Source: Siphonodentalium dalli (taxonomy: Eukaryota > Mollusca > Scaphopoda > Gadilida > Siphonodentaliidae). Taken from it: a stretch of 64,000 nucleotides of DNA. The stretch covers positions 63,766,609 to 63,830,608 of the forward strand of contig CP136066.1 of the NCBI GenBank assembly GCA_032622095.1. Reading direction: 5' to 3'. Position numbers and translations under genes: made by a program. The notes beneath the pieces are model-generated. The model was not told where the DNA came from and made no database searches. It saw only the letters and a program-made list of their open reading frames with translations. Numbering within the stretch: position 1 is the stretch's first letter; each line of letters begins with the position of its first letter. Below are positions 7,466-56,110 of this stretch, piece after piece.

Positions 7466-7591
7466 ATGCCGCACCAGGTCTACATGAATTATGTCCATCC
7501 AAGCTCACTCCTACAGCAGTTATCAGATCTGTGGCGTATGGACCAGTTATGTGATGCCGTTATCACTGTAGACAAAGTCATCATCGCAAAG
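7466..7591 (+). CDS. BTB-zinc-finger gene, coding exon 1 (BTB N-terminus)
   Basis: Encodes the first 42 residues, MPHQVYMNYVHPSS and onward, with the BTB/POZ opening LLQQLSDLWRMDQLCDAVI and a phase-0 end at the donor AAG|GTACCA. The next exon continues with AHRLLLF, which is the classic BTB core (KxxxAHRxxL), so the junction is well supported. A candidate acceptor (ACATTTGCAG, ending at 7420) suggests the exon begins at 7421 with 45 nt of 5' UTR. The ATG at 7466 is chosen because it is the first in frame and gives a normal BTB N-terminus. BTB domains dimerise and, in BTB-zinc-finger proteins, mediate nuclear transcriptional regulation. No promoter or upstream UTR exon could be identified; they probably lie further left, beyond the hAT element ending at 7344. 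Confidence 0.85.
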
Positions 7592-8090
7592 GTACCATTA
7601 GACTCATTGACTTACCCCTTAAGTTGACTGAATGCTCGGACATGAGTAGTTCACTGGGGAAGTGTCTGGGAATGTATAATAATCTCTGTCCATCTGTGGA
7701 TGCAACTTTGTCCGAGCTTATATTCCTTCAATTTTAAGTCAATTGTTTTGAAACTGGGCACATATATTTGGAACCTGCGATTATGAGGTCCCACGGCTTT
7801 TGCTTTAGTGGAGTTACCCCCCTTTTTCAACTTACCCCAGGTGTAATATTTCACAACATGCATAATGCATAATTTTGTCCGAACTTCTATTCCTTGTGTT
7901 TTTTTTCTTGAAAAATCAAGTTTGTGGCTACTAATAATGTAGCCCAATTTATTTCACTGCAGGGGTTGGGGGCATCATCCCATGGGGACAGTTCAACCTC
8001 TAGTTTTAAATAAAAAAAAGAAGTAACAACCAGTTAATTTATAGTGCTTGAATTGACAGCTTATCATCAAATTATTTTGGTACATTTCAG

Positions 8091-8857
8091 GCACACCGTT
8101 TGCTGCTTTTTGCTATTAGTCCCAAACTGAAAACAGATTCGAGTAACCCAAGCTTTCATTCATCTGTTCTTGACGTGAGTCTTCCTTCCGGCGTGAGCCA
8201 TAGATCTGCTCATGCATTTCTACAGTACATATACGAGGGCTTCCTATACATGACAGATTCTATAGTTCCCGATCTGATGAGGATCGCGGAAGCCCTCGAA
8301 ATCAAATGCCTCTATCAATGCTGCAAGGAATTCCACTTAAAGATGGTCGCTAAACCGGCTTCAAACTGTGATGTGTCAAAATGGGACAGCAAACCGGAAG
8401 ATTTTGGCCATATTAGAAAAACTGATGACCTCAAATTTGAGGTTCCGGAATCTGTGAAAAGAAAACACGAGAGTGAAAATGGGGCCGGTGCGAAGACTTT
8501 GAAAATTAACCGAGATTTTGGTAACAAAAAATCTGAAAATATTCATAAGTCTTCCACAACGTCAAAATTTACAGGGAGTGAGTTTTTAAGAACATCAAGT
8601 TCGAATAGAGATCTGAATTCTACGTCCGGTGGTGATCAAATCTCTGGTAGAACTGATAGGCCTAATGCTGAGTTACTGCGGTCTATAAAAATAGAGCGAG
8701 CGGAGCATTATGGTGAAGCAGAAGACGGTGGTGTGATGTTTTCGGAATCCAATCAACTCACTGCCTTTGATGTGAATCAGGACCATGATGCGTCTGAGGA
8801 TGACAACACCTACTCTGCTCAAATGGAGGAAGGCGTGTCGGAAGCTCATCCAAATCT
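8091..8857 (+). CDS. BTB-zinc-finger gene, exon 2 (BTB core and linker)
   Basis: Follows acceptor TACATTTCAG and ends at the strong donor TCT|GTAAGT, leaving two bases of a split codon. The first roughly 85 residues complete the BTB fold: AHRLLLFAISPKL, a VLDVSLPSGVS strand, then FLQYIYEGFLYMTDSIVPDL and LMRIAEALEIKCLYQCCKEF, matching the usual FLxYxYTGxxxL and AxxLxIxxLxxxC pattern. The rest is a hydrophilic, Ser/Lys/Asp-rich linker without a recognisable fold, expected to be disordered. It carries a KRKHE basic patch (possible nuclear signal) and SIKIERAE, a psi-K-x-E sumoylation consensus (Lys about 242 of the full protein). The exon is common to all predicted isoforms. The function, a nuclear regulator, is inferred from the family and from the fingers in later exons. 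Confidence 0.88.
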
Positions 8858-9146
8858 GTAAGTATCTTTGTCCTGAATCATCGGTACCATGTTGTGATGT
8901 ACTTTGCTTCATCTTTCTGTCCATTCATACATTTTATCTTATAAATTGGACATCGATAATCAAACTTGGGTTGTTCTTTGATACAATTTTGAAATTCTCT
9001 CATTGGTACCGGGGGTATATAATCCAAAATGAGGAATACCACCACAATGAAATAATACAAATACATATCAGAAATAATAATATTTGAGAATAATTGTGGC
9101 CTAAGATTAATAAAACCTGAAAGTCTTACTATTTATCATATACATG

Positions 9147-9296
9147 TACAGTAATGCCATCAATAATCGACTTCTTAACCACAGCATAATTATGGGTAAC
9201 TTTTCAGGCAACATGCCATATTTCCAACTAAATCCTTAAAAGTTAACCATAATTCTTCTGTGGTTAAGGAGTTGATTATTTAGGGCATTACTGTAT
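9147..9296. mobile_element. Family A palindromic MITE, internally deleted copy
   Basis: Ends TACAGTAATGCC and GGGCATTACTGTA with inverted arms CTTAACCACAGCATAATTATGG and its complement; the central loop part is missing compared with other copies. TA ends suggest a Tc1/mariner-type target duplication. Confidence 0.75.
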
Positions 9297-9375
9297 TTAT
9301 GAATGACTAGGATATAAGTGAATTGTGTTTCGTCAACATGTTGTGGATACCAGTCAAAAATATCCTATTGTTATC

Positions 9376-10728
9376 TAGAGCTGAAACGGTTAGACGGTTA
9401 ACCGGTTAGCATCCGGTTAGCGACGTAACCGGTTAGAAAAAAATGAACCGGACGTAACCGCATCCCGTTGTCAGTTGAATGTGAACGTGAATAATCCTCA
9501 AAATATTAGGTTAAATGATGCAAAACTAATACTAAATCCTGTGTCACCGATAGTAGAGTGCAATGCAAGCATTAATTGGTACACGCGGTAATATCAGATA
9601 CTTAGTAGCAATTCTCGAACTGTCTGGAAGTGTCGGCGACCTTCAATCAATTCCAACCCTTTGAAGTTTTCTTCCGACAAAAGCACGTGTGCAGTCACTG
9701 TGTATCAAGTCTGAATGCACACAAGGAAGTGACAACGTAAAAGTGGCGTTGTGTGGCAATGCGTGCTTTCGTAACTTAATAGTTAATACTGCACGAAGCA
9801 ACATGGATTCAAATTGGAATCACACCACGACATACTATATATAAAACTGTTTTACAGTGGGGTTTATAAAAACTATGTAAGTCGACAAAGTTTGAAGATT
9901 GAGATCAGCTGCACAATGTCTTCACTCTTCCCGTTCTTCCTCCCTGTTGTGATTTAATATGATCAATTCAATTGAGTGACCAAACAGACATCGTAGTTGA
10001 AGCAACCCAAAACTTCTTCAATAATCTTCCCTTTTATCAAGGAAATTTAATTGATGCTCCATGCTACTCTGTAACTGGTTGTGCCTGTGGGACTAATTAA
10101 CACTCAATTTGGCAGTAATTGCTATATGTTAAGTGATTGCATACTAAAACCGAAACCGAAATGTAAATTATATAACCTCCCAACACTAGTGTCCGCTATC
10201 ATGATACCGACGAATAGCTCGAATACTGAATAGGACTGCGAGTCTGACCTAACTGACCTTCCTTTTTGTTCTCTAGTTATTACTTTCTTGTCTTTATATA
10301 TAATGCATTGGAGGATATACCAATGATGATAATGATATATTACAGATCTTTAATATATAGTTTTGTTACTCGTTTTACCAATACCCATACTATTTTACTC
10401 GTTTTACAAATGCCCAAACATATGCTGATCACGGCAAATAAGCGATCTCCCCTGCCATTCACAAATTTCACTTGCTCATTCCCCATCACGACTCACGAGA
10501 GCCAGCAAAAGAACAGTGAATGCGTGTTTTTGAATAGCGTTAAATGCCGTGAATACGGTCTTTATTTCAGCTACTACTTCTCACCTAGGTTTGTCCCTGG
10601 AGCATGGCATAATGTCAACATAATTAGTGTGAGAGAAGTCCGCTAGAAATTTAGCGGTTAACCGGTTGAAATCCGGTTAACCCCGATGGTTAACCGGTTA
10701 GAAGAATGGGTCAACCGTTTCAGCTCTA
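9376..10728. mobile_element. Non-autonomous hAT-type element, 1353 bp, in intron 2
   Basis: Ends TAGAGCTGAAACGGTTAG and AACCGTTTCAGCTCTA, perfect 8-bp duplication TTGTTATC (9368-9375, 10729-10736), with subterminal runs of GGTTAACCGGTTAG at both ends. The open frame at 10266-10646 inside has no recognisable transposase motif. Confidence 0.88.
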
Positions 10729-11103: not shown

Positions 11104-11121
11104 GGGGGGGGGGGGGGGGGG
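11104..11121. repeat. G homopolymer run
   Basis: About 18 consecutive G. Length is likely variable or assembly-sensitive. Confidence 0.8.
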
Positions 11122-11504: not shown

Positions 11505-11983
11505 TAATAATAATAATATTTGTATAGCGCTTATCCCCAATAAGCGGGCCCTAAGCGCTTGACATAAACATAAACATGAAATATACACAATATCAAAGTC
11601 ATTTTCTGAAACGCCGCGCAAACAAGTAAGTTTTCAATGACTTTTTAAAGTTGTCAAGAGATGGTGACTCTTTTATATTCAATGGCAGAGGATTCCATGC
11701 ATTTGCGCATGTTACTTTGAAAGATCGGTAGCCAACCGATCAAATTAGCACCAGATGGTGTCAAAAGAAGTTTGTCCTCGGAACGAAGTGATTGGTGTGG
11801 GACATACGGAACAAGGATATCACTGAAGTATGCTGGAAGAGCTTTTGAGTCATGGGTTGCTTGATATGCATATGTAACAAGTTTATAAATAATCCTATCT
11901 GTCACAGGTAGCCAATGTATGTGGTTCAAGGCAGGACAGCTCAATGATCCATGTGATCTGTAATATTCAGGCCTGATTGACAT
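11505..11983 (-). pseudogene. 5'-truncated non-LTR retrotransposon, ORF2 C-terminus
   Basis: On the minus strand 11654-11983 reads NHIHWLPVTDRIIYKLVTYAYQ and YFSDILVPYVPHQSLRS, the familiar end of a CR1/L2/Rex-type ORF2 (hWLPVxxRIxYK, then LxxYxPxRxLRS). The expected following block (GxRAFxxxAPxLWNSLP) is degenerate and the frame stops, so it is not functional. Further along the minus strand it ends in an AAGCGCTATACAAAT stretch followed by ATT repeats, a common LINE/SINE 3' tail. All of the endonuclease and most of the reverse transcriptase are missing. Its 5' side merges directly into the 78-bp satellite, which copies its coding segment. Confidence 0.75.
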
Positions 11984-14900
11984 CAGAACAATTGGCTACA
12001 TGTATGTGGTTCAAGGCAGGACAGCTCGATGTGACCTGTAATATTCAGGCCTGATTGACATCAGAACAATTGGCTACATGTATGTGGTTCAAGGCAGGAC
12101 AGCTCAATGATCCATGTGATCTGTACTATTCAGGCCTGATTGACATCAGAACAATTGGCTACATGTATGTGGTTCAAGGCAGGACAGCTCGATGTGACCT
12201 GTAATATTCAGGCCTGATTGACATCAGAACAATTGGCTACATGTATGTGGTTCAAGGCAGGACAGCTCAATGATCCATGTGATCTGTAATATTCAGGCCT
12301 GATTTACATCAGAACAATTGGCTACATGTATGTGGTTCAAGGCAGGACAGCTCGATGTGACCTGTAATATTCAGGCCTGATTGACATCAGAACAATTGGC
12401 TACATGTATGTGGTTCAAGGCAGGACAGCTCGATGTGACCTGTAATATTCAGGCCTGATTGACATCAGAACAATTGGCTACATGTATGTGGTTCAAGGCA
12501 GGACAGCTCGATGTGACCTGTAATATTCAGGCCTGATTGACATCAGAACAATTGGCTACATGTATGTGGTTCAAGGCAGGACAGCTCGATGTGACATGTA
12601 ATATTCAGGCCTGATTGACATCAGAACAATTGGCTACATGTATGTGGTTCAAGGCAGGACAGCTCGATGTGACCTGTAATATTCAGGCCTGATTGACATC
12701 AGAACAATTGGCTACATGTATGTGGTTCAAGGCATGACAGCTCGATGTGACCTGTAATATTCAGGCCTGATTGACATCAGAACAATTGGCTACATGTATG
12801 TGGTTCAAGGCAGGACAGCTCGATGTGACCTGTAATATTCAGGCCTGATTGACATCAGAACAATTGGCTACATGTATGTGGTTCAAGGCAGGACAGCTCT
12901 ATGTGATCTGTAATATTCAGGCCTGTTTGACATCAGAACAATTGGCTACATGTATGTGGTTCAAGGCAGGACAGCTCGATGTGACCTGTAATATTCAGGC
13001 CTGATTGACATCAGAACAATTGGCTACATGTATGTGGTTCAAGGCAGGACAGCTCGATGTGACCTGTAATATTCAGGCCTGATTGACATCAGAACAATTG
13101 GCTACATGTATGTGGTTCAAGGCAGGACAGCTCGATGTGACCTGTAATATTCAGGCCTGATTGACATCAGAACAATTGGCTACATGTATGTGGTTCAAGG
13201 CAGGACAGCTCTATGTGACCTGTAATATTCAGGCCTGTTTGACATCAGAACAATTGGCTACATGTATGTGGTTCAAGGCAGGACAGCTCGATGTGACCTG
13301 TAATATTCAGGCCTGATTGACATCAGAACAATTGGCTACATGTATATGGTTCAAGGCAGGACAGCTCGATGTGACCTGTAATATTCAGGCCTTATTGACA
13401 TCAGAACAATTGGCTACATGTATATGGTTCAAGGCAGGACAGCTCGATGTGACCTGTAATATTCAGGCCTGATTGACATCAGAACAATTGGCTATATGTA
13501 TGTGGTTCAAGGCAGGACAGCTCGATGTGACCTGTAATATTCAGGCCTGATTGACATCAGAACAATTGGCTACATGTATGTGGTTCAAGGCAGGACAGCT
13601 CGATGTGACCTGTAATATTCAGGCCTGATTGACATCAGAACAATTGGCTACATGTATGTGGTTCAAGGCAGGACAGCTCGATGTGACCTGTAATATTCAG
13701 GCCTGATTGACATCAGAACAATTGGCTACATGTATGTGGTTCAAGGCAGGACAGCTCGATGTGACCTGTAATATTCAGGCCTGATTGACATCAGAACAAT
13801 TGGCTACATGTATGTGGTTCAAGGCAGGACAGCTCGATGTGACCTGTAATATTCAGGCCTGATTGACATCAGAACAATTGGCTACATGTATGTGGTTCAA
13901 GGCAGGACAGCTCGATGTGACCTGTAATATTCAGGCCTGATTGACATCAGAACAATTGGCTACATGTATGTGGTTCAAGGCAGGACAGCTCGATGTGACC
14001 TGTAATATTCAGGCCTGATTGACATCAGAACAATTGGCTACATGTATGTGGTTCAAGGCAGGACAGCTCGATGTGACCTGTAATATTCAGGCCTGATTGA
14101 CATCAGAACAATTGGCTACATGTATGTGGTTCAAGGCAGGACAGCTCGATGTGACCTGTAATATTCAGGCCTGATTGACATCAGAACAATTGGCTACATG
14201 TATGTGGTTCAAGGCAGGACAGCTCGATGTGACCTGTAATATTCAGGCCTGATTGACATCAGAACAATTGGCTACATGTATGTGGTTCAAGGCAGGACAG
14301 CTCGATGTGACCTGTAATATTCAGGCCTGATTGACATCAGAACAATTGGCTACATGTATGTGGTTCAAGGCAGGACAGCTCGATGTGACCTGTAATATTC
14401 AGGCCTGATTGACATCAGAACAATTGGCTACATGTATGTGGTTCAAGGCAGGACAGCTCGATGTGACCTGTAATATTCAGGCCTGATTGACATCAGAACA
14501 ATTGGCTACATGTATGTGGTTCAAGGCAGGACAGCTCGATGTGACCTGTAATATTCAGGCCTGATTGACATCAGAACAATTGGCTACATGTATGTGGTTC
14601 AAGGCAGGACAGCTCGATGTGACCTGTAATATTCAGGCCTGATTGACATCAGAACAATTGGCTACATGTATGTGGTTCAAGGCATGACAGCTCGATGTGA
14701 CCTGTAATATTCAGGCCTGATTGACATCAGAACAATTGGCTACATGTATGTGGTTCAAGGCAGGACAGCTCGATGTGACCTGTAATATTCAGGCCTGATT
14801 GACATCAGAACAATTGGCTACATGTATGTGGTTCAAGGCAGGACAGCTCTATGTGATCTGTAATATTCAGGCCTGATTGACATCAGAACAATTGGCTACA

Positions 14901-16565
14901 TGTATGTGGTTCAAGGCAGGACAGCTCGATGTGACCTGTAATATTCAGGCCTGATTGACATCAGAACAATTGGCTACATGTATGTGGTTCAAGGCAGGAC
15001 AGCTCGATGTGACCTGTAATATTCAGGCCTGATTGACATCAGAACAATTGGCTACATGTATGTGGTTCAAGGCAGGACAGCTCGATGTGACCTGTAATAT
15101 TCAGGCCTGATTGACATCAGAACAATTGGCTACATGTATGTGGTTCAAGGCAGGACAGCTCTATGTGACCTGTAATATTCAGGCCTGTTTGACATCAGAA
15201 CAATTGGCTACATGTATGTGGTTCAAGGCAGGACAGCTCGATGTGACCTGTAATATTCAGGCCTGATTGACATCAGAACAATTGGCTACATGTATATGGT
15301 TCAAGGCAGGACAGCTCGATGTGACCTGTAATATTCAGGCCTGATTGACATCAGAACAATTGGCTACATGTATGTGGTTCAAGGCAGGACAGCTCGATGT
15401 GACCTGTAATATTCAGGCCTGATTGACATCAGAACAATTGGCTACATGTATGTGGTTCAAGGCAGGACAGCTCGATGTGACCTGTAATATTCAGGCCTGA
15501 TTGACATCAGAACAATTGGCTACATGTATGTGGTTCAAGGCAGGACAGCTCGATGTGACCTGTAATATTCAGGCCTGATTGACATCAGAACAATTGGCTA
15601 CATGTATGTGGTTCAAGGCAGGACAGCTCGATGTGACCTGTAATATTCAGGCCTGATTGACATCAGAACAATTGGCTACATGTATGTGGTTCAAGGCAGG
15701 ACAGCTCGATGTGACCTGTAATATTCAGGCCTGATTGACATCAGAACAATTGGCTACATGTATGTGGTTCAAGGCAGGACAGCTCGATGTGACCTGTAAT
15801 ATTCAGGCCTGATTGACATCAGAACAATTGGCTACATGTATGTGGTTCAAGGCAGGACAGCTCGATGTGACCTGTAATATTCAGGCCTGATTGACATCAG
15901 AACAATTGGCTACATGTATGTGGTTCAAGGCAGGACAGCTTGATGTGACCTGTAATATTCAGGCCTGATTGACATCAGAACAATTGGCTACATGTATGTG
16001 GTTCAAGGCAGGACAGCTCGATGTGACCTGTAATATTCAGGCCTGATTGACATCAGAACAATTGGCTACATGTATGTGGTTCAAGGCAGGACAGCTCGAT
16101 GTGACCTGTAATATTCAGGCCTGATTGACATCAGAACAATTGGCTACATGTATGTGGTTCAAGGCAGGACAGCTCGATGTGACCTGTAATATTCAGGCCT
16201 GATTGACATCAGAACAATTGGCTACATGTATGTGGTTCAAGGCAGGACAGCTCGATGTGACCTGTAATATTCAGGCCTGATTGACATCAGAACAATTGGC
16301 TACATGTATGTGGTTCAAGGCAGGACAGCTCGATGTGACCTGTAATATTCAGGCCTGATTGACATCAGAACAATTGGCTACATGTATGTGGTTCAAGGCA
16401 GGACAGCTCGATGTGACCTGTAATATTCAGGCCTGATTGACATCAGAACAATTGGCTACATGTATGTGGTTCAAGGCAGGACAGCTCGATGTGACCTGTA
16501 ATATTCAGGCCTGATTGACATCAGAACAATTGGCTACATGTATGTGGTTCAAGACAGGACAGCTC
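11971..16565. repeat. LINE-derived satellite, 78-bp unit, about 58 copies
   Basis: The unit reads CCTGATTGACATCAGAACAA...TTCAAGGCAGGACAGCTCGA...ACCTGTAATATTCAGG. Copies are nearly identical and spaced exactly 78 bp. A few at the left edge are 85 bp (CTCAATGATCCATGTGATCTG in place of CTCGATGTGACCTG) and alternate with 78-bp units. On the minus strand the unit encodes the same RPEYYRSH..LSCPALNHIH segment as the LINE fragment next to it. It lies in intron 2 of the BTB gene. Confidence 0.95.
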
Positions 16566-17470
16566 AAGACCTCTAAATGAGTAAGGCCAAAACAAAAAAC
16601 TCCTCTGTTTCCGGTAACATTGGGATAATTTTCCAGACAGGCAGGAAGGGATTTTTCCTTTTTTTTTTAAACCTTTCAGCCATAAGCGATATGATAGTTC
16701 AGTCACGGCCCCATGGAATATGGTAGTTCAGTGTGTTTTGAAATTGAGCCAAGCATTGGATAAAAACATGCTGTCCCTTGAATTCATTTTCTCTGCAGTA
16801 AGATCTCTTTCAACGCTGAGCTTAATAACTGACTTATTTTTGCTTTTTGGATTGGGAAAAAAGATAAATATTCACATTGACACTCTAACATGTAAAGAGG
16901 TTTTTTTTTGGCCTAATCACTGTTTGCAGTCCTTCAATTTTGAAAAATGCAGATGCAGTTTATTTTGGATCCAGGTGCATAATTGTGGTTTGGTGCATCC
17001 CATTGGGGGAAATAACCAATGCATGTACACATAAACATGTTTATTACATGCTTGTTCCTAGAATTGTTATTACTGTTCCATACTTTACAAATCCGTATGG
17101 AAGATACATGTACATGTACGTTCGATATGCAGTGCCATACTCAGAACTATAAAATAAAAGCATCATCACACATGACAAAACAAGCCCTGTATTTGTGAAA
17201 GGATAGAACTTGAGTCTATGCCACTTGTTCTATCCTTACTCAATAGCACTCGTGCTATATCAACAAATCCATTGATACACTCATGTCGTTCTCTGTGTAT
17301 ATAATATACTCAAATAACATTGCTTTGTGCTATTTTAGTATTTAATAAAGCTTCTAACAAAATAAAAGTGTTCCCTGTTGGTTAGTTCACCAAAAAGTTC
17401 CTTTCAGGGATTGTTTTGCGCAGCACTAACTCCCAATCATATTGTCACTGTTAAGTCATTTTGGCAAACA
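16566..17470. other. Between two satellites; no gene seen
   Basis: AT-rich intron sequence. Short open frames (for example 16720-17034) have no domain. ATAGAACTTGAGTC and its neighbourhood carry no recognised signal. Confidence 0.4.
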
Positions 17471-19032
17471 CGGAATGCTCTTTATTTCTAACGATACATT
17501 GTATCAGGAATAGATTAACACGGAACGCTCTTTATTTCTAACGATACATTGTATCAGGAATAGATTAACACGGAACGCTCTTTATTTCTAACGATACATT
17601 GTATCAGGAATAGATTAACACGGAACGCTCTTTATTTCTAACGATACATTGTATCAGGAATAGATTAACACGGAACGCTCTTTATTTCTAACGATACATT
17701 GTATCAGGTATAGATTAACACGGAACGCTCTTTATTTCTAACGATACATTGTATCAGGAATAGATTAACACGGAACGCTCTTTATTTCTAACGATACATT
17801 GTATCAGGAATAGATTAACACGGAACGCTCTTTATTTCTAACGATACATTGTATCAGGAATAGATTAACACGGAACGCTCTTTATTTCTAACGATACATT
17901 GTATCAGGAATAGATTAACACGGAACGCTCTTTATTTCTAACGATACTTTGTATCAGGAATAGACTAACACGGAACGCTCTTTATTTCTAACGATACATT
18001 GTATCAGGAATAGATTAACACGGAACGCTCTTTATTTCTAACGATACAGTGTATCAGGAATAGATTAACACCGAACGCTCTTTATTTCTAACGATACATT
18101 GTATCAGGAATAGATTAACACGGAACGCTCTTTATTTCTAACGATACATTGTATCAGGAATAGACTAACACGGAACGCTCTTTATTTCTAACGACACATT
18201 GTATCAGGAATAGATTAACACGGAACGCTCTTTATTTCTAACGATACATTGTATCAGGAATAGACTAACACGGAACGCTCTTTATTTCTAACGATACATT
18301 GTATCAGCAATAGACTAACACGGAACGCTCTTTATTTCTAACGATACATTGTATCAGGAATAGACTAACACGGAACGCTCTTTATTTCTAACGATACATT
18401 GTATCAGGAATAGACTAACACGGAACGCTCTTTATTTCTAACGATACATTGTATCAGGAATAGACTAACACGGAACGCTCTTTATTTCTAACGATACATT
18501 GTATCAGGAATAGACTAACACGGAACGCTCTTTATTTCTAACGATACATTGTATCAGGAATAGATTAACACGGAACGCTCTTTATTTCTAACGATACATT
18601 GTATCAGGAATAGATTAACACGGAATGCTCTTTATTTCTAACGATACATTGTATCAGGAATAGACTAACACGGAACGCTCTTTATTTCTAACGATACATT
18701 GTATCAGGAATAGACTAACACGGAACGCTCTTTATTTCTAACGATACATTGTATCAGGAATAGATTAACACGGAACGCTCTTTATTTCTAACGATACATT
18801 GTATCAGGAATAGATTAACACGGAACGCTCTTTATTTCTAACGATACATTGTATCAGGAATAGACTAACATGGAACGCTCTTTATTTCTAACGATACATT
18901 GTATCAGGAATAGATTAACACGGAACACTCTTTATTTCTAACGATACATTGTATCAGGAATAGATTAACATGGAACGCTCTTTATTTCTAACGATACATT
19001 GTATCAGGAATAGATTAACACGGAACGCTCTT
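17471..19032. repeat. Satellite of 50-bp units, 31 copies
   Basis: Unit CGGAACGCTCTTTATTTCTA followed by ACGATACATTGTATCAGGAA and TAGATTAACA, exactly 50 bp, 31 full copies plus a partial, with T/C variants at one position of TAGAYTAACA. It contains the near-palindrome GATACATTGTATC and the motif GAACGCTCTTTATT that also occurs in the THAP/TTAA elements at 49.7 and 60.6 kb. Confidence 0.95.
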
Positions 19033-19585: not shown

Positions 19586-19949
19586 GTCCAACCAACTCAA
19601 ATATTACAATCGGCAAAACATAAAAGCTGAGCCTGAGGCTGAAGATGAGGAGGAGGATGAAGATATTGTTTTCACTGGTAGCAGTGGCATGACATTTATG
19701 GCCGCTAACGCGGACCTATCTGATGCACAAATGGCTTTATTACAACAAGGGGATGCTCAGCTGGCTGACTTTCAGTTTGATTCTGTAAATCATGAATCTG
19801 TGAATCCGCAGCAGTTCTCACAGTCATCACCATGGAAACATTCTCCTCAGATTCGGCATCATGGACCGAAATCAAGTCAGACGCAGCAGTCTCCCGATGT
19901 GGGTGCCCAAGCCGATAGTGACAACAGCTTCAATCAGTCCAACTCTGAA
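19586..19949 (+). CDS. BTB-zinc-finger gene, exon 3 (acidic and Gln-rich linker)
   Basis: Begins after the pyrimidine-rich acceptor CACTCTTCTCTTTAG; its first base completes the Leu codon left open by exon 2, and the frame then stays open for 121 codons to donor GAA|GTAAGT. The phase match across a 10.7-kb intron is the main support. The sequence holds NIKAEPEAEDEEEDED, a psi-K-x-E sumoylation site followed by an acidic run (Lys about 311), then a Gln/Ser-rich stretch. No folded domain is seen. The exon ends in phase 0, the same phase in which all three zinc-finger exons begin, so it serves as the shared splice donor. Reading past the donor meets a stop near 19980 inside a MITE, so an intron-retained short form without fingers is possible. 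Confidence 0.82.
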
Positions 19950-19974
19950 GTAAGTATTTTATCTCCTGGTCAGG

Positions 19975-31348: not shown

Positions 31349-32700
31349 AACAAACAATTCCTGAAATAAAACTTTGCAAAGTATGCTGAAAGTCACTCAG
31401 GGATATATGAGAAAACAATCTAATGCAATGGTTTCATGCCACATCTGGTTATTTTGGAGGAGTTGTTGAAATTCGAACGCGAGTGTGCTAGATTGGGAAA
31501 TGTCCATTTTTAACAATTGATGCTCATTTCTTGTAAAGTTATGAACCGAAAAATAAAAAAAACAACTTCAATGCAACTGAAAGTCATCGCCTATTGTATC
31601 AGCAATATAAATATTGCAAGCTTTCTATTTTAGTTGCGGCCATTTTCATGTGGCTGCAAAAGTCGTAAGTCTGTTACACATAAATGGTATCAGACGTCCA
31701 CCCCCAATAGCTCGAATTTCGGAAATTGAAAAACATTTCCACGAAATTTCACCTTTAATGGACATGGTTGAAATACAACAAAAGCGTGTATAATAAATTG
31801 CTATTGGATGTGATCTTTAAGATATCCTTTCAATTTATATTGGATCCATGAACTCACGATTTTTCCCGCGGTATTTTTCTTGTGTTTTCTGTGTTGTTCA
31901 GTGTTCGTTACGGGAGAATCTAATGCTTTTAATTCGTCTACGAGCATCTTACGACGAACGTTATGATATTAGCGGTCGCTTAGTATGATTATTATGCAAA
32001 GTTTTATTTTAGAACATATAAGTATGTACAATACTCACGTTTTTTAGATGTAGATATCCTTTTAAAAGCAAAACACAAGGCAATCCCACATATGACGAAA
32101 ACAAGAGTGAAATGAGATCTCGCGAAGTCACGCGATCCGCGATATTTCATATACCGACGCTTGGCCGAGCACTGCGGCTTCTAATTGCCCCATATATACA
32201 TCGCTGGTACAATGTAAGCGAATGGCAGTGACATCTGTTTGATGCTTAAATCGCACAAATTCCAAATATTATAGTTTTGTATGAATCTGATTTCACCTTT
32301 GTAATTGGTGTGGCGTGTTCAACTTTCTTCATGTTAGAAATGTAAACAACAAGACAATAGAAATATTATTTATTAATGTTTACAATGCATGCATGTATAT
32401 AAGATTAGGAAGGACTTCGTTGGTCACTGCATGATTCACAAATATTAATGATAAAAAATTAACCCCCCCCCCCTTTTTTTAAAAAAAGGGTATAATATGA
32501 AGATACATGTAATCTAGGTACAGTGTATTTATCTTTATGGCCAAAAAAACAGTTAAATTTCCTTCCAATACGGCTCCTAAAATTATACTTTTAAGCTGAG
32601 TATTGAATTGACTAATTGATTAGTTGAATGTGGAGTGATAAATAAAAATTTATCATGTTATCATGTCTGATGAAAAGAGAGATTGAAACGTACATCTGCA

Positions 32701-35320: not shown

Positions 35321-36124
35321 ATTGCAATTGATCGCCCCTTTTCATGTGGACTTTGTGGATTACGTTTTCGACAGAAACACGGTCTTTCTCGGCATGAAAA
35401 GAAACATTTACAAAGTAGGGACCACATTTGTGTTTACTGTAGCCGGGCTTTCTACAGAAAAGACAAACTCGTTGATCACATGGCTATCCATGCCTCATCA
35501 AAACGTCTGTGTTGTGATGACTGTGGCCAAACTTTCAAAACTCTTCAGTTGTTGCTTTATCATCAAAGTTACGCACATGGCGTTGTTCAACAGGAGAATG
35601 TATTACGATTCATGGAAATGAACACGTCAGCAAATGCTAGTATGAATACATGTCCGCCAGCTAGTTCGGTGACAAAACCACCCTCAGGACCTACTCCAAC
35701 CAAGATGACTTCGACTAGTCTTTTAACGTCTGCCATTCAAAAGGGAAAGAATTGGAGATTTGGAGTGGTACCAGATGAGAGTCCGGGACAAGACGATAGT
35801 TTTGGTGCTTGGTTGGCAAAGCCAGTCTCGCAATCTACCCCAACCAAGATGGCGTTTAAGAGTGTTTTAACATCTGCTAATCCCAATGAAAAGGATAAGA
35901 GTTTTGTGGTTGCAAAAGACGAGAGTTTGAGGGTCGGACAAGACAAGAGTTTGAGGGTAGGACAAGACGAGAGTTTAGGTGTCGGACAATTTAACGACGA
36001 GAGTTTGGGTGTTAAACAAGAAGAGAGTTTGGGGGTCGGACAAGACGAAAGTTTGGAGGTTGGACCAGATGATCATGAGGGTGTTGGACAGAACTTTATG
36101 TTTGCCGCTGTGGAGATGAGTTGA
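35321..36124 (+). CDS. BTB-zinc-finger gene, terminal exon A (three C2H2 fingers)
   Basis: Starts in phase 0 after acceptor TTCCTTTTCGTTGCAG and runs 267 codons to TGA. Three C2H2 fingers come first: CGLC...HEKKH, CVYC...HMAIH and CDDC...HQSYAH (the last with a four-residue His spacing), within about 80 residues. A Ser/Thr/Pro-rich tail follows, in which a phrase TPTKMxxxSxLTSA occurs twice (about 60 residues apart), then six to eight degenerate copies of DESLGVGQ. Spliced to exons 1-3 it gives a 686-residue BTB-zinc-finger protein, probably a DNA-binding transcription factor. ATTAAA at 36377-36382 and AATAAA at 37019-37024 are candidate poly(A) signals. The two other terminal exons downstream make it an alternative end. 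Confidence 0.85.
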   Translation: MAIDRPFSCGLCGLRFRQKHGLSRHEKKHLQSRDHICVYCSRAFYRKDKLVDHMAIHASSKRLCCDDCGQTFKTLQLLLYHQSYAHGVVQQENVLRFMEMNTSANASMNTCPPASSVTKPPSGPTPTKMTSTSLLTSAIQKGKNWRFGVVPDESPGQDDSFGAWLAKPVSQSTPTKMAFKSVLTSANPNEKDKSFVVAKDESLRVGQDKSLRVGQDESLGVGQFNDESLGVKQEESLGVGQDESLEVGPDDHEGVGQNFMFAAVEMS

Positions 36125-42858: not shown

Positions 42859-43920
42859 TTAGGAAGGAGGTGAACGACTTCTTGTCAGAACCTCCAACCC
42901 CACAGGCTTCAAATAATGTTTAATAAAGGTGGTCTCTTGAGACCAATCTGCTGCTGATAACACTTGATCCAAAGAAGCACCATTGAAGAGGGCCCAGGTG
43001 GGTCCGACACTCCTGGTAGAATAGCCCGAAACAGGAGGCGGAGTCTGCTGTTGATTCGCATAAGCAGTCCGAATACACTGGACAATCCATCTAGATATGG
43101 ACTGGCTAGACACCGGCTGATGAGGTTGCTTGAGACTGAGAAAAACAGAAACACTGGATTCAGAACCACTCGCCACTTGCCGCCAATCCGATGTCCGCTG
43201 AAGATATGTCAAGAAGGCACGTTTCGGATCCAAGGCAGGACAGTCTGAGAAGCTAGGAATGAAAATCTCCTGTGAGTGATGGGAAGGTCGATCCTGTTTA
43301 GCCAAGCCCTGACGTCGAAAAGAAATACCCTGTTCCATCACATTAACATAACCTTCGCCCAGCCTCAAGGATTTTAAGTCACTGCAGCGACGAAACGATG
43401 TAATGGCCAAAAGAAAAACCGTCTTCCACGTGACCATCTTCATTGATGCTTCCTCTAGAGGTTCAAATGGAGCAGCTGTTAGTCCTTCTAAAACAAGAGG
43501 AAGATCCCATTTAGGCAAGAGATTACGAACTGGTGGCCTTTGATTGAAAACGCCACGTAACATTCTAATAATACTTGGATGCTGTCCAACCAAATGACCA
43601 TCCAAGGGTGGTAAGACGGAAGACAACATAGACCGGTAACCAGTAATGGTCGCATAAGCTAAACCTTTATCAAATAAATGAGAAATGAAATTGGCGCAAT
43701 CGGTTAAAGTGACTCGAAACGGATCAATTTGTTGTGAACTACACCAGCGATTAAATTGTCGGAATTTACTGGTGTAGTCCTTTCTTGTCCCAGAGCGCCA
43801 AGAGGCCAGGAGCAAGTCTCGAGATTGTTCAGAAAAGCCTTTTGCAGTGAACTGTCTGTTGATAGCAGCCATGCAGCTAAGTTCAGATCGCCCGGTGACG
43901 GATGAAAAATCCGACCTTGA
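42859..43920 (-). CDS. DIRS tyrosine recombinase
   Basis: C-terminal half of a 784-codon open frame. The N-terminal SAM-like part reads SWRSGTRKDYTSKFRQFNRW and DCANFISHLFDKG; the catalytic part has the first Arg in TSFRRCSDLKSLRL, a box GYSTRSVG where the family normally has His-x-x-Arg, and the nucleophile Tyr in TTFIKHYL. The His is Tyr here, one C-to-T change away, which probably impairs strand exchange. The frame runs unbroken into RNase H only because the upstream pol frame has shifted; ancestrally this was a separate, overlapping frame. It would integrate the circular cDNA without target duplication. Confidence 0.85.
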   Translation of the reverse strand, partial: SRSDFSSVTGRSELSCMAAINRQFTAKGFSEQSRDLLLASWRSGTRKDYTSKFRQFNRWCSSQQIDPFRVTLTDCANFISHLFDKGLAYATITGYRSMLSSVLPPLDGHLVGQHPSIIRMLRGVFNQRPPVRNLLPKWDLPLVLEGLTAAPFEPLEEASMKMVTWKTVFLLAITSFRRCSDLKSLRLGEGYVNVMEQGISFRRQGLAKQDRPSHHSQEIFIPSFSDCPALDPKRAFLTYLQRTSDWRQVASGSESSVSVFLSLKQPHQPVSSQSISRWIVQCIRTAYANQQQTPPPVSGYSTRSVGPTWALFNGASLDQVLSAADWSQETTFIKHYLKPVGLEVLTRSRSPPS

Positions 43921-44135
43921 CCCTGCGAGAGAAGCGTTGGGAATAGTGGTAACCGGAGCGGAGCTGCTACCAGCAATCGGAGCAGATTGGGAAACCAGCT
44001 CTGACGAGGCCAAACCGGAGCTATTAGAATTAGCTGGCAATGGTACATTTCCATGTGTTTGAGACACCGAGAGATCAGACTGATTGGTGGAAACGCGTAA
44101 CGCAAATAGGTTTTCCCACGGTATTGACAGTGCAT
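43704..44135 (-). pseudogene. DIRS pol C-terminal block, displaced frame
   Basis: Contains YAFPPISLISRCL and LIAPVWPRQSWFPNLL, the conserved block that follows RNase H in DIRS pol. It overlaps the recombinase frame in a different phase, as in related elements, and is cut from the upstream pol by the shift near 44.1 kb. Confidence 0.7.
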
Positions 44136-45826
44136 CTATTTTCCACGCCTGTGGATGCGGTGTCCATGAGCAGAACTGTAGAGTCTGAGCATTCTCGGCC
44201 GAGGCAAACAGATCTACTGACGGACATTTCCAACGGAGAAAAAGTTGTTGTACAATCGACGGATGTAACAGCCATTCGTTGCGATCGATCGGTTTTCGAC
44301 TCAACCAATCGGCCAGGTGATTGTCGACGCCCCGCACATGAGCCGCTTTCAGCGTCATATTGTTCATGAGGGCCAACTGCCATAAACACCATGCCATCTG
44401 ACATAGTTCGTCGGACCGTGTTCCGCCTTGTTTGTTTATATACTGCGTGACGGTCGTATTGTCGGAACGAATTAATACATTCTGATGGCGCAACTGAGGA
44501 AGGAAATGTCGTACCGAACGGATCACGGCCTCCATTTCCAGACAATTGATGTGCCGTAACTTTTCCATCGACGACCAGGTGCCCTGAACCACGCGATGTT
44601 GCAGGACCCCGCCCCAGCCGACTGAACTGCTCGCATCCGTAGAGAGGGTTACCCATTGATACGGAGCAGCCAGAAACCGCCCTTGAAGAAGATTGCTCTC
44701 CCAAAGCCACCACTGAAGACAATGATGGATATGCAGTGAATGAGGAATAATCTGGCGTAAAGGCATGCGCAGAGGAGACCAATGTTGTCGGAGATAAGTT
44801 TGAACTGGTCGCATATATAGGCGAGCATTTGGAACTATCTCCAAAAGCGAAGCTGCCATACCCAAGAATACCAGGTATTGTCGGGCAGGGTTGGGTCTTA
44901 GACTGAGGTCGAGAGCTACGCGCTTCAAGTTTATCACCTGCTCCAGTGTTGGGTATACCTGACCTGTTTGAAAATTGAACTTGCAACCTAAGTAAGTGAT
45001 CGTTTGAGATGGTACAAGATGGGACTTTTCCTTGTTCACAAGAAATCCCAAATTTGTCAACAGATGTAGGACCAAACGTCGATGTTGACAAAGAACCGAG
45101 CGAGACGCATTGACTACCAACCAATCGTCCAGGTAATGACACACCCGTACCCCTTGATGATGAAGAAAAGCTATGATGACCGAAGTTACTTTGGTGAAAA
45201 TCCGCGGGGCCATTGTTGGACCGAAGCATAGCTTTCCACTGATAACTGACTCCTTGAAAATGGAATCTCAAGTATTTTCGGTGCGTGGTATGAATCGCCA
45301 GATGCATGTACGCATCGGTCAAATCGAGGGAAAACGCATGGTCGCCCTTGTGGACGGCACTGAGAACCATGGAGAGAGTGTCCATTTTGAAGTGCTTTTT
45401 CTTTATAAACTGATTCAGACTCCGAAGATTGAGAACGGGTCGCAACGTCCCGTTTTTCTTGGGAACCAGAAAGATGGTGCTGTAAAACCCCCTCTGAACC
45501 TCGCCCAACGGAACCAATTCGATAGCATTTTTGGACAGAAGATGTTGAATTTCTTGTTGAATAAGAGGGATCTGTCGTGTAGGAACTCGAGTTTCCCGCA
45601 CACCCGAAAACTTCGGATGTGTGTGAAACTCCAACTGGTAACCCTCTTTCACGAGGGCTAACACCCAAGTATCCGCAGTTATACGTTTCCAATTTGTCCA
45701 GAAAAGTGAAATCCGCCCCCCTACGGGGACGGTTGGCAAAGGAATAGTTACAGGCGTACTTACATAGTCATTGTGTCGATCTTCCCCGGCCACGACCGCG
45801 GCCACGGGAATAGTGTCCACCACCAA
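44091..45826 (-). pseudogene. DIRS pol: reverse transcriptase and RNase H, frameshifted
   Basis: The first part (45826 to about 45230) carries RT fingers and palm start: LVPKKNGTLRPVLNLRSLN and HAFSLDLTDAYMHLAI. At about 45221-45232 the frame shifts, and MAPRIFTK then YLDDWLVV (the YxDD box) continue in the frame that starts near 45213. RNase H follows: STDASSSVGWGG, NCLEMEAV, SDNTTVTQYIN, AHVRGVDNHLADWLSR. A DIRS-typical block starts at VDLFASAEN. A second shift at about 44091-44104 moves the continuation (YAFPPISLI..., then VWPRQSW) into a third frame, 43704-44135. Two shifts imply no functional pol is made from this copy. Confidence 0.88.
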
Positions 45827-47261
45827 ATCCTCTATTTGATTGGTCTCTGGTAAACTTCGGAATCCGAAAATTAGAGGGAGGCTGTTCTGGTACCAATCTA
45901 GTCACAGTAGCAGACGCCGGTTGCTTCTTAGGTTCCATGGGATAAGAAGCCTTACGCTTAAGTCCCTTCATGTGAGAATCTGGCGGAGGGGGAATCAAGT
46001 CCTCAACCTGCTTCTTCCGCTCTTTCCGAGCTTTCAACAAAGGTTCCAGACCCGGTCCAAACACACCCTCACCAGTGAGTGGCAAATTGGACAATTCATG
46101 TTTATGGTCAGAATTGAGTAGACCAGCATCATGCAGAGCTAAATATCTGCGAACAATGTGAAAGAATGCACCGGACCGGCCAATTTGGTCCATCCCGCGA
46201 CAAGTCATTGCAAATATGTCCTTAAGTAATTCCACACACTCAGTGGTATCGTGGTCATGCGACAACTTGAATAACAACCGTCCCAGTGCTTGCTGAACAT
46301 ATAAGTTTACCACCACTCCAAGTCGTGCAGCCTGCTGGCCTTTGTAAGCCAACTGTTCTGCTCGTTTAGCAGGCTGATTAACCAACGAAGTGTTGGCAGA
46401 AGAAAAGGCAGGCTTTTGCTTATAAACTCCATGCTTTTTGAACAAACATGAGTCTATAAAATCATCTAAGGATGGAACTTTCAAAAAAGTTTCTGTCGTG
46501 TCATCAATTGGAAATTTATCAAAAGTTTCCTCTGAAAATGCACTTAAATTGTATGGTGCCGACGAACGATACGAAGTCGCCAACACCGATTTCTGAGACT
46601 CGTCGATGCATAAACCAACCTGTTTGTCATCTTTTGGCATAGAACATCTTGCACCAAACAAATCTTGTAAAGATGTATGTTGAAAATCACGATCCTGGTG
46701 ATCAGGAGAGTGACTGTCAGGAACTAGCTGAACTTCAGAATTGCAATCGGAATCTGACAGCACTCCAGACTCTAAGTCCAAAATATCATGTACAATGTCT
46801 TCTGTTGACTTTGCTGAATTTTTGTCTCCAGTGGACTTGGACATAAAAAATAAGCGTAAGTTTCTCGACGCACCACGATTGTCGTCAGAATTCTCTAAAA
46901 CATGGTCTCCAATGGACCGAGAATTCGCCTGTGGCGCTACATGGACATGTGTATGCTGGCCTCCAACGGGCCGAGAATTCACGTTTACGTCACGCACTGA
47001 CGTGGAACTCCCAAGAGCAGCTGCCGACGTAGAAACGTTTGAACCCGCGATGGTCAACAACGCTTGCACAAAATCAGGAGACAGAAGATTGGAAAGTCGG
47101 TCAACCTTACCTTCTAATCCCCCCATTTTGTCAGTCCATTTCTCGTCGAGAATAGCATATTGTGAACGGCGTTTACAACGCTTTTTAGGCGGAGAAGGTG
47201 AATGAAGCAAAGACGTATCCGTCGTATCCTCGTCCGAAGAATTGCTTCCCACATCCGCCAT
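45768..47261 (-). CDS. DIRS element ORF1, gag-like protein
   Basis: Intact 497-codon frame. The N-terminus is Ser/Asp-rich with a basic block PPKKRCKRRSQ (likely nuclear signal); the middle is helical-looking with no named domain by eye; the C-terminus is RG-rich (GGGHYSRGRGRGRGRS), which suggests RNA binding. No CCHC knuckle is present. Position ahead of pol and overlap of about 60 nt with the next frame (45768-45826) fit ORF1 of DIRS elements, which is thought to play the gag role. The product identity is inferred from position. Confidence 0.75.
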   Translation of the reverse strand: MADVGSNSSDEDTTDTSLLHSPSPPKKRCKRRSQYAILDEKWTDKMGGLEGKVDRLSNLLSPDFVQALLTIAGSNVSTSAAALGSSTSVRDVNVNSRPVGGQHTHVHVAPQANSRSIGDHVLENSDDNRGASRNLRLFFMSKSTGDKNSAKSTEDIVHDILDLESGVLSDSDCNSEVQLVPDSHSPDHQDRDFQHTSLQDLFGARCSMPKDDKQVGLCIDESQKSVLATSYRSSAPYNLSAFSEETFDKFPIDDTTETFLKVPSLDDFIDSCLFKKHGVYKQKPAFSSANTSLVNQPAKRAEQLAYKGQQAARLGVVVNLYVQQALGRLLFKLSHDHDTTECVELLKDIFAMTCRGMDQIGRSGAFFHIVRRYLALHDAGLLNSDHKHELSNLPLTGEGVFGPGLEPLLKARKERKKQVEDLIPPPPDSHMKGLKRKASYPMEPKKQPASATVTRLVPEQPPSNFRIPKFTRDQSNRGFGGGHYSRGRGRGRGRSTQ

Positions 47262-47507
47262 AACTCAACAATAAAAAGTTGAAAGAATAGAGCTACATAA
47301 AAAAAACCGGCGTGTTGAAAAACGCCAAATCCGAGAAAGTGAGGAGTGAAGGTCACGGTGGACCACGTGACACAGCCCAGCTGTGGTGGTCCGTGCGAAG
47401 CATGTGAACTTTTTAGTTCACCTGCGGTTGAGAGCATGGCGAGTTATTTTTAGCCATCCGGGAATTCCCAATGTCTGTAATACTAATAAGTCATTTACGA
47501 AATAAAA

Positions 47508-49140: not shown

Positions 49141-49163
49141 ATTTGTTTACTAAAAAGCATGAA

Positions 49164-49228: not shown

Positions 49229-49240
49229 CTCTCCTTGCAG

Positions 49241-49459
49241 ATGTTTGGTTACACGTGCCACGTCTGTGGAGTCAAGATCCGATGGCAGTCAGATCTAAAG
49301 CGTCATATGAGGAAGCACGCGGAAACACAGCCGTATCCCTGCCACTTGTGCGATAAAGCATTCTATCGGAAAGATAAACATCGTGAACACTTGATGAAAA
49401 AACATAAAATTATCCCGGACAACTTACTGGAGGAAGCTAGAAATATCTTGCTGAGCTAA
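49241..49459 (+). CDS. BTB-zinc-finger gene, alternative terminal exon B (two fingers)
   Basis: Starts in phase 0 after acceptor CTTCTCTCCTTGCAG and encodes 72 residues before TAA. Two C2H2 fingers fill most of it: YTCHVCGVKIRW...HMRKH and YPCHLCDKAFYRK...HLMKKH, joined by a short linker, then a 16-residue tail rich in Leu and Glu. Length, finger pair and position match the isoform-specific ends of lola-type loci. Spliced to exon 3 it would give a 491-residue protein. The ATG at 49241 is probably only an internal Met, since no 5' exon of its own is seen. A hairpin MITE begins 27 nt after the stop, so the 3' UTR must run into transposon sequence; AATAAA at 50000-50005 inside that insertion is a possible signal. 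Confidence 0.82.
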   Translation: MFGYTCHVCGVKIRWQSDLKRHMRKHAETQPYPCHLCDKAFYRKDKHREHLMKKHKIIPDNLLEEARNILLS

Positions 49460-49486
49460 TTGGACTTGTAGTCGAGTTAAAATATA

Positions 49487-53552: not shown

Positions 53553-53556
53553 TTAA

Positions 53557-53798: not shown

Positions 53799-53802
53799 TT
53801 AA

Positions 53803-54514
53803 TCAAGCATGGAAACTTGAACCGTTGATATGAGTTTTTAAGCATTTATCAATTTGTGAATACATCTATATTAATATTATTTGTAATATAACGTACATTT
53901 GACTTCCAATGTTCTTTGTGTGATATAAATTCATATATTATAATTGTTTGTCTGCTTTTTCTTGTCAAAATTGTCTGCGTGTAATCCCTGGCATAGTTAC
54001 TTCCCATCCTGTCAATGGCGTTCACCCATAGGAATGAGTCGAGAAGTGCCTTCGTGGTTTTAGCGACAGGAAGGGGATTATCACACTACCCCCAACTTTG
54101 GTCAAAACAATTTTTCAACAGTTGGAAATTTCACATAAAATTTGTTTCGCATTGTTCAATTTTCAACCCGTATTTAGTGGGGAGTTTGTTGTTTTTAGAC
54201 GACAATCGCATATTTTAAAATTTTCGGTCAAATTGTAGGACTAAAATATCCATCAGTGGGAAATTTCAAACCTTAGTCAGGATGTTGGGGGGGGGGGGGG
54301 GGGGGGGGGGGGTGTCATGTTAGAAATTTCCAACAGTTGGAATTTTATGTGTGGGGAACCAGTTAGAAGAGGCTGCACATGCAAATGTAATTTTGGCAGA
54401 ACTTTGACATGGATTTTCAAGTTATCCACACCAAGACATGTGGCCAGATACATACCAAATGACCCATTCTCTTGTATTTAACAGTATCATTATATTCTAT
54501 ATACATGAGGGTGA
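53803..54514. other. No gene seen; 26-nt G run
   Basis: AT-rich sequence with a 26-nt run of G at 54287-54312 and two GTTGGAAATTTC-like phrases. Confidence 0.5.
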
Positions 54515-55045
54515 CATAGTGTGTCTGATAGTTGCAGAATGAGGTCCCCCAGAGAGTTAATTCAGTGACGTTATCCCACACAGCGGATTAGCATCACCAA
54601 ATTCACCATATGTGGACCTCATTCTGCTTAGGTCTCATCTTCTAGGAAATATCTATACATGTAGTCTCAAACTAACAGATTTTAGCTACTTTTTCCATTC
54701 TGTTCAGTTTCTATATCCCCTAATTTGCAGATGATGAAATGCATAATCGAGGTGGGATAACATAACCAACATCAACTGGGGAACTTCAATCTGATCCTTG
54801 GTCTCCCATAGCAGAGGGCTAAGCAGAATATCAGAGGTTCCCTTACATGTACTTTAAATATGCAGTTGGAATATATGCATACTGGTATATCCGAGAGTAG
54901 TCACTTATCCCTGGGACGACAAAAATAGGGAGAAGTGGCACATTTTTGGGTGACAGATTTGTCCCAAGTCGCCCTCTAGACTGGTTCCTGATTCACCAAT
55001 GGGGACCTCATTCTGCCAATATCAGAAACACTATATCCAGCCTGA
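54515..55045. mobile_element. Family C MITE, long and interrupted
   Basis: GTGTGTCTGATAGTTGCAGA with GAATGAGGTCCCC at the left and GGGGACCTCATTCTGCC near the right; the interior between about 54840 and 54985 carries unrelated sequence. Confidence 0.55.
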
Positions 55046-55063
55046 ATACTGTATGTCACTAAT

Positions 55064-55197
55064 GGGTGTGGAATAAATACACAGAACAACACAAGTGTGT
55101 TAATGGGTTTGTTGATAAGGCATGAGTGCTAGCGCGGAAGGTGCACAGTACCAACAAACCAATTAACACATGTGTCATTCTGTGTTTATTACACACC
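55064..55197. repeat. Foldback, about 45-bp arms
   Basis: GGTGTGGAATAAATACACAG and complement (CTGTGTTTATTACACACC), then CACAAGTGTGTTAATGGGTT and complement. Confidence 0.75.
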
Positions 55198-55282
55198 ACT
55201 CGTCCTGGAATCCGTAAATAAAAAACGAAGGCTTACAATACAAGGCTTGTTTTGTCATGTATGGTGTTGCTTTTATTTTATA

Positions 55283-55550
55283 ATTTCACCCATACAGAGC
55301 CCCAGACAAACATGAGCAGACGACACTCTTCTATGTGCTTCTATATATGTGTGGGGCTCCCTGCAGGTTAATGGATGTTTTTTTATTTTATGTCCTTTAA
55401 ATTGTAAGAAACATTTATTTAAAAAACATGATAACAAATTGTTAAGCCAATGCATTCTCTTATATATGCGAGGCGACCTATGGTCGACTCGCATATATAA
55501 GAGAATGCATTGGCACAGGGTAAAAAACTTCCGACTGGATTTGATATGGT
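55283..55550. mobile_element. Partial MITE, type iv-like, with hairpin module
   Basis: CACCCATACAGAGCCCCAGA ... GGGGCTCCCTGCAGG block followed by a hairpin module (55446-55520). The same order is found inside the element at 57760-58218. Confidence 0.7.
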
Positions 55551-55654
55551 TTCATGTTTGAGGGGAATGTTATTTACATCATGTGACATCAACAGGATGC
55601 ATATGGAACACGTTTTCCATATGGATTTGTAAATATAGAGCAGCAAGAACACTG

Positions 55655-55867
55655 TACAGTAATGCCATAAATAATCGACTCCTTAACCACAGCAGAATTA
55701 TGGGTAACTTTTCAGGATTAAGTCGGAGATATGGCTTGTTGCCATTCATCGGAAAGCTCTCAGAGCTTTCCGATGAATGGCAACAAGCTATATTTCCGAC
55801 TGAATTCTGAAAAGTTACCCATAATTCTGCTGTGGTTAAGGAGTCGATTATTTAGGACATTACTGTA
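55655..55867. mobile_element. Family A palindromic MITE, 36 nt before terminal exon C
   Basis: TACAGTAATGCCATAAATAA to ATTTAGGACATTACTGTA with full arms. It ends 36 nt upstream of the exon C acceptor junction. Confidence 0.92.
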
Positions 55868-55903
55868 ATAAATCCTGATATGTGTCTGCCATTTTACTTT
55901 CAG

Positions 55904-56110
55904 GATCGCCCTCATGTCTGCGACATTTGTGGAAGGTCCTACATTCAGAGATGTAACTTGATTCGACACAAATGGACTCATCGGTCCACAGTGAAATTCA
56001 AATGTGCAACATGCGGAAAGCCGTATTGGCGAACTGATCTGTATTACTTGCATCTGCGGACACATCTTAAATATCCCAACAAACCAGAGATCGAGCCCCC
56101 AAAAGAATAG
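55904..56110 (+). CDS. BTB-zinc-finger gene, alternative terminal exon C (two fingers)
   Basis: Starts in phase 0 after acceptor GCCATTTTACTTTCAG and encodes 68 residues before TAG. Two C2H2 fingers, CDICGRSYIQR...HKWTH and CATCGKPYWRT...HLRTH, have the standard C-x2-C-x12-H-x3-H spacing. The last 15 residues (KYPNKPEIEPPKE) lie in the first unit of a 60-bp tandem repeat that continues into the 3' UTR. Joined to exon 3 it would give a 487-residue isoform. A palindromic MITE ends 36 nt upstream of the exon. AATAAA at 56795-56800 is a candidate poly(A) signal. The fingers differ from those of exons A and B, so DNA specificity should differ between isoforms. Confidence 0.82.
   Translation, partial: DRPHVCDICGRSYIQRCNLIRHKWTHRSTVKFKCATCGKPYWRTDLYYLHLRTHLKYPNKPEIEPPKE

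Follow-up and report, generated by a model that had tools for sequence, protein, structure and literature searches.

Organization of the locus

The 64-kb stretch of DNA that was analysed here (the window; C6:63766609-63830608 of a 2.23-Gb genome in nine contigs) carries a gene of which the first three exons encode a BTB domain and a linker, followed on the same strand by three separate exons, A, B and C, that each contain C2H2 zinc fingers and end at a stop codon of their own. Very probably, one of these three exons at a time is spliced to the common BTB and linker part, and they would then act as alternative termini; the gene belongs to a family of related loci, at least 12 of which possess candidate terminal exons of this kind. 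The coordinates, phases and stops of the BTB part and of exons A, B and C, which had been proposed in an initial annotation of this DNA, were confirmed to the base by reading and by a script.

Exon 1 (7466..7591, + strand) begins with an ATG, encodes the N-terminal part of the BTB domain in 42 codons and ends at a phase-0 donor (AAG/GTACC). Exon 2 (8091..8857, +) is preceded by a TTTCAG acceptor and contains the rest of the BTB domain and then a charged/serine-rich tail with an F-x-H-[VI]-R motif, up to a donor of phase 2 (CT/GTAAGT). The codon that is split after exon 2 is completed by the first base of exon 3 (19586..19949, +), which has a TTTAG acceptor, is entered in phase 2 and left in phase 0 (donor GAA/GTAAGT), and encodes a linker with the motif IKAEPEAEDEEED. 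The joined exons 1-3 match the BTB/POZ profile of Pfam, PF00651, at 4.4e-12 (46.6 bits, with a cut-off of 20.5).

Terminal exon A (35321..36124, +; 267 amino acids) has three C2H2 fingers and a repetitive acidic tail, whereas exons B (49241..49459, +; 72 amino acids) and C (55904..56110, +; 68 amino acids) have two fingers each; their matches to zf-C2H2 are at 4.3e-11, 3.0e-7 and 1.6e-7, respectively. The acceptors (TTCGTTGCAG for A, CTCCTTGCAG for B and TTACTTTCAG for C) are pyrimidine-rich AG sites and all three are of phase 0. When both strands of the window were scanned, A, B and C were the sole open reading frames (ORFs) with at least two fingers. A single-finger ORF at 32377-32448, which looks like a product of chance or decay, was left out of the terminal-exon count.

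The initial annotation also considered it possible that more terminal exons lie past the window. This is not supported for the present locus, as the 30 kb scanned beyond the window edge contain no finger exon. Before the edge, at 61194-61352 (+), a short ORF starting with MPYKCSVFGC gives a THAP-domain match (8.7e-6); a neighbouring gene may begin here, with this ORF as its first exon, in which case the BTB locus would end before it.

The BTB family in the genome

A search of the genome with the BTB query gave 53 matches, which we grouped ourselves as 24 of exon-1 type, 23 of exon-2 type, one fused and five weak matches to other BTB genes. Grouping by exon-1-type or fused matches yields a family of 25 related BTB loci on C4, C6, C7 and C8, the window gene included; at one of these, C7:29845687, exon 1 alone was seen. 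The position at which the BTB domain is split is identical in all 23 copies of which both BTB exons were read, namely after K and before AH[RK], with a GT in phase 0 (the script pattern being K followed by GTN). These 23 copies include that of the window; exon 1 ends with AAG/GT in 22 of them and with AAA/GT in one. Among the 22 other copies that were scored for the end of exon 2, the frame runs directly into a phase-2 GT[AG]A donor in 16 and lacks it in six, the fused copy included; L016 fell outside the scoring of this pattern, yet a phase-2 GT[AG]A donor is visible there. The fused copy (C4:236451650-236452012, L040) has exons 1 and 2 joined with no intron, and at least four phase-0 finger exons, one with a tied acceptor, lie 57-163 kb downstream of it.

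A protein search of the genome with exon 3 of the window gene returned exon 3 itself as the sole match, and the paralogous exon was therefore located by comparing the DNA of C4:170.596 with that of its duplicate C4:171.092 (synonymous divergence, dS, 0.17 and nonsynonymous divergence, dN, 0.06 in exon 2). A conserved block in the 10 kb downstream of both reads as an exon 3 of 283 nucleotides with phase 2 in and phase 0 out (C4:170608415-170608697 and C4:171101138-171101420). The window gene (IKAEPEAEDEEED) and the two duplicates (MKPEPGEED and IKPEPGEED) have the motif [IM]K[AP]EP..ED in common, which occurs at 19610-19670 of the window, at about 8290 of L080 and at about 4465 of L081. We take it to resemble a SUMO-attachment site with acidic residues after it.

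Another BTB paralog of the family lies upstream of the window (C6:63755300-63759130; L013, L084), on the opposite strand and head to head with the window gene, at about 15 kb from its start codon.

Terminal exons across the family

When exons B, C and A, and then exons newly found in this way, served as queries, short finger ORFs were detected on the same strand downstream of family loci, amid many matches to ordinary zinc-finger genes elsewhere; since only the best 150 of 12,079-16,374 candidates were scored, absence from these searches means little. In the stretches sampled around matches and in some neighbouring DNA, an ORF was counted if two or more of its fingers fitted a loose definition and one or more a strict one, the choice being made by finger content and not by phase; it was then allotted to whichever family locus lay closest upstream in the same orientation. 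By this count, 12 of the 25 loci have candidate terminal C2H2 exons, 62 in total: at least 27 at C4:170.596, nine at C6:170.488, five each at C6:59.493 and C6:167.496, four at C4:236.451, three each at the window gene and C6:78.829, two at C6:208.958, and one each at C4:170.544(-), C4:171.092, C6:105.354(-) and C6:59.658. The best non-self matches of terminal exon C are terminal exons of the C4:170.596 locus, with 57% and 52% identity. The case of three ends in the window described by the initial annotation holds, but its scale was underestimated.

The best-scoring acceptor is of phase 0 in all 62 exons (in one, L100, it is tied with a phase-2 site), and at least two strict fingers are present in 53 of them. 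As read from the DNA, the fingers can follow the BTB part in frame in all three cases in the window and in all 62 over the family, the one tie included. This layout, in which 5' BTB exons with a common final phase precede a set of 3' exons that each carry fingers and end in a stop of their own, is like that of lola. The predicted use of alternative terminal exons is strongly supported by the occurrence of the same layout, strand and phase at 12 of 25 loci and by the exon-3 phase-0 donor that is kept in two paralogs. In its main point, a shared BTB part with alternative finger ends, the earlier description agrees with what can be read from the DNA.

The uniform phase would also keep the frame if the finger exons were cassettes spliced in series to give one many-finger protein, provided that they had internal donors. 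Each of them has an in-frame stop, and in the 53 exons scanned no donor after the last finger and before the stop exceeds a score of 4.0, although this threshold is a weak one, which the genuine donors of exons 1 and 2 would not pass either. We judge serial splicing to be extremely unlikely.

The 255,573 bases that were scanned at the family loci, including the finger-free stretches L005, L006, L049, L051 and L052, contain no antisense finger exon, as compared to the 62 in sense orientation. Such uniformity of phase and strand goes beyond what chance would give. All of the latter are in cis and downstream of the BTB part. Trans-splicing, by which finger exons from separately started transcripts would be joined to the BTB part, is still compatible with this arrangement, and the large distances, such as that at C4:170.596, where the farthest terminal exon seen lies 227 kb beyond exon 3, would fit it, as would the trans-splicing that is reported at Drosophila lola and mod(mdg4) (excerpt of PMC11426971). 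Nevertheless, we consider it unlikely, and joining in cis to alternative terminal exons is the process that we would expect.

A further possibility is that each locus has one working terminal exon, the others being left over from exon duplication or belonging to small zinc-finger genes of their own. A decayed-looking copy at L031:7810 and the ATG that is present at the start of six of the 62 exons would agree with this. On the other hand, 47 of the 62 have no Met codon between the acceptor and the first finger, which implies that they need an upstream exon and are not easily genes of their own, and the frame is open and the acceptor of phase 0 in all 62. Moreover, dN is lower than dS in all five terminal-exon pairs that were compared, which were chosen for their similarity and are the only ones computed (dS/dN of 2.36/0.16, 0.90/0.23, 0.24/0.13, 0.48/0.20 and 2.96/0.32, two of them with dS above 2). 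We find this explanation very unlikely.

For comparison, 16 ORFs were collected by the same rule at 11 loci with short finger ORFs that are away from the family and were taken from the search lists. An acceptor score of 2.9, a threshold set after the scores had been seen, is reached by none of these 16 as compared to 49 of 53 exons at BTB loci, and a linker of the HTGEKP type occurs in all 16 and in none of the 53, for which the pattern used was slightly narrower. Most of the controls are fragments of disrupted poly-finger arrays, read in stretches about 800 bases long, which makes them a weak control for splice sites, and the contrast would be only supportive of the terminal-exon reading. Together with phase, strand and the small number of start codons, it nevertheless makes it unlikely, in our judgement, that the exons are separate zinc-finger genes or parts of ordinary poly-finger arrays.

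Several points weigh against the interpretation as alternative terminal exons. The joining of the exons is predicted from sequence. Nine of the 62 exons have one strict and one variant C2H2 finger, and the single-finger ORF at L031:7810, which was left out of the 62, lacks the first Cys of finger 1. Terminal exons were found at 12 of the 25 loci, the other 13 having been sampled only to about 1 kb after exon 2, and exon 3 is confirmed in the window gene and the two duplicates only. The assignment of exons to loci spans up to 227 kb, regardless of other genes in between, and one finger match on the opposite strand (C6:208678930-208679079, -; a frame of 278 amino acids), which may belong to an unrelated zinc-finger gene, is flanked by two family loci, the next of which it precedes by about 279 kb. 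The scan for donors is a crude one, as its matrix gives the genuine donors of exons 1 and 2 scores of 0.0 and 1.6. Of the dS values, the two highest (2.36 and 2.96) are near saturation, and all dN and dS values are to be read as point estimates. Finally, poly(A) hexamers after the stops (31 of 51) are not clearly commoner than in random windows (1694 of 3200).

The predicted DNA-contact residues, at the finger positions that we assume to make the contacts, form a different set in each of the 62 exons, with 135 distinct quadruplets among 150 fingers (four residues per finger). Since the entropy at these positions shows no clean excess over that at other finger positions, no diversifying selection is claimed.

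Lineage markers

A Hox-type cluster was found on C7 at 77.0-79.1 Mb, using a Hox-class homeodomain query; 12 of 14 homeobox loci were read, of which 11 are in the cluster. In one clustered locus the homeodomain is followed by KLTGP. By their signatures, the cluster genes presumably are Lox5 (the KLTGP tail), Lox4/Lox2-like, Post2, Post1 and Hox1, 3, 4 and 5, and a cluster with genes of the Lox5, Post1 and Post2 type points to Lophotrochozoa. The position outside arthropods that had been proposed earlier is supported by this cluster (its genes being named by sequence signatures) and by the finding that a tramtrack query has only weak matches in the genome. The molluscan haemocyanin profile PF14830 had no match in the genome, but none of 14 control genomes matched it either, and this result speaks neither for nor against the molluscan origin that the initial annotation regarded as probable. 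Two homeobox exons of the cluster, at C7:77673389 and C7:77720567 (L068, L069), translate identically, which would be due to a recent duplication or to an assembly duplicate.

Relation to known BTB zinc-finger genes

The BTB domain of the family is not of the TTK type. Exon 1 has the sequence YMNY[IV]HPSSLL or close variants of it in 23 copies, as compared to the FCLRWN start of the tramtrack BTB query, a sequence that was used without positive control. This query gave 27 weak matches in the genome, the best at 1.6e-9 with 36% identity, of which none is at the 25 family loci. The structure of the TTK-type protein CG6765 matches residues 41-116 only, at 7.1e-5, which is weaker than the best ZBTB and BACH matches; among solved structures, a ZBTB17/NACC1 fusion, BACH2, BACH1 and a ZBTB17/BCL6 fusion are closest in BTB sequence. 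The N-terminus, the comparison with CG6765 and the tramtrack query all argue against a TTK-type identity.

BTB zinc-finger genes with several alternative ends are known above all from the TTK group of arthropods. In broad and tramtrack, a TTK-type BTB domain is combined with alternative zinc-finger ends, and these genes and fruitless resemble the window gene, with its three ends, in having few of them, but they are arthropod genes with a TTK-type BTB. The isoforms of fruitless vary in their C-terminal zinc fingers (excerpt of PMC3852243). Drosophila lola has a TTK-type BTB domain and 17 of its 20 isoforms have different C-terminal C2H2 fingers (excerpt of PMC11426971). As in lola, there is a shared 5' part with the BTB domain and there are many alternative 3' ends with a few C2H2 fingers each, and the isoforms would differ in their DNA-binding end; unlike lola, the family described here has a non-TTK BTB domain, mostly two or three fingers per exon, and a design that is repeated within a single genome, at 12 or more paralogous loci. 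This is probably a convergent case, in which a lola-like layout arose on an unrelated BTB subfamily. The non-TTK BTB-C2H2 proteins of Drosophila are described as having one isoform each (excerpt of PMC11426971). Of the two origins considered in the initial annotation, independent or ancestral, the former has become the better supported, the BTB not being of the TTK type (excerpt of PMC11426971), and the latter less so.

In sequence, the BTB domain is closest to that of vertebrate genes of the ZBTB and BACH type, and some vertebrate BTB genes, such as PATZ1, also have isoforms with different ends. We know of no vertebrate BTB gene with an array of separate finger-bearing last exons, no search aimed at this having been made. 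The family here differs from vertebrate ZBTB genes by the intron inside its BTB domain, which is not typical of the latter. Alternative terminal exons are mentioned for Bach2 (excerpt of PMC2635362), and mammalian BTB factors are described as a BTB domain with on average five fingers (excerpt of PMC11426971).

Expanded and clustered BTB genes have been described in another lophotrochozoan, as the clusters BTBGC1 and BTBGC2 of Crassostrea oysters, most members of which are among testis-related factors (excerpt of PMC12111275). The likeness is by description only, and in the excerpted text of that source no alternative finger ends are mentioned. No report of alternative zinc-finger ends on lophotrochozoan BTB genes was found in the open-licence literature, subscription papers and preprints being outside the scope.

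Proposed function and significance

In the working that we propose for these loci, exons 1-3 would provide a linker and a BTB domain that most likely dimerizes, and this shared part would be connected to one terminal exon at a time by alternative splicing and alternative polyadenylation. Two or three C2H2 fingers, different for each terminal exon, would be added in this way together with the stop of that exon, and one gene could give rise to factors with the same partner-binding part and different DNA specificities. The family would most likely have grown as entire loci and individual terminal exons were duplicated.

On balance, we are inclined to the view that a lophotrochozoan lineage evolved about 25 BTB loci as splice-selected libraries of zinc-finger ends, independently of the TTK-type genes of arthropods. 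If true, the number of ends in the family would be well over 62, and free pairing of BTB domains could give hundreds of dimer specificities per locus (378 pairs for 27 ends). This would be a combinatorial recognition system with a layout like that of clustered protocadherins or Dscam, in which the target is DNA. If a lophotrochozoan has such a design on a large scale, at many loci and with a BTB domain of the classical type, this would suggest that the same solution, a shared pairing part with swappable DNA-reading ends, has evolved twice, and it would offer a second system for asking why such genes arise, what picks the end, and whether they always need trans-splicing. The birth and divergence of exons are also recorded in these arrays, where the predicted contact residues differ in every exon read. 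It is likely that ordinary gene prediction misses such exons or splits them into separate models.

Other elements in the window

Two long and nearly perfect satellite arrays are present between exons 2 and 3, at 11951-16565 (a unit of 78 bp, 59 times) and at 17467-19032 (a unit of 50 bp, 31 times). Between exons A and B, the minus strand carries a retroelement (42859-47264), which we take to be DIRS-like, with matches to reverse transcriptase and weak matches to RNase H and to a phage-integrase-like domain.

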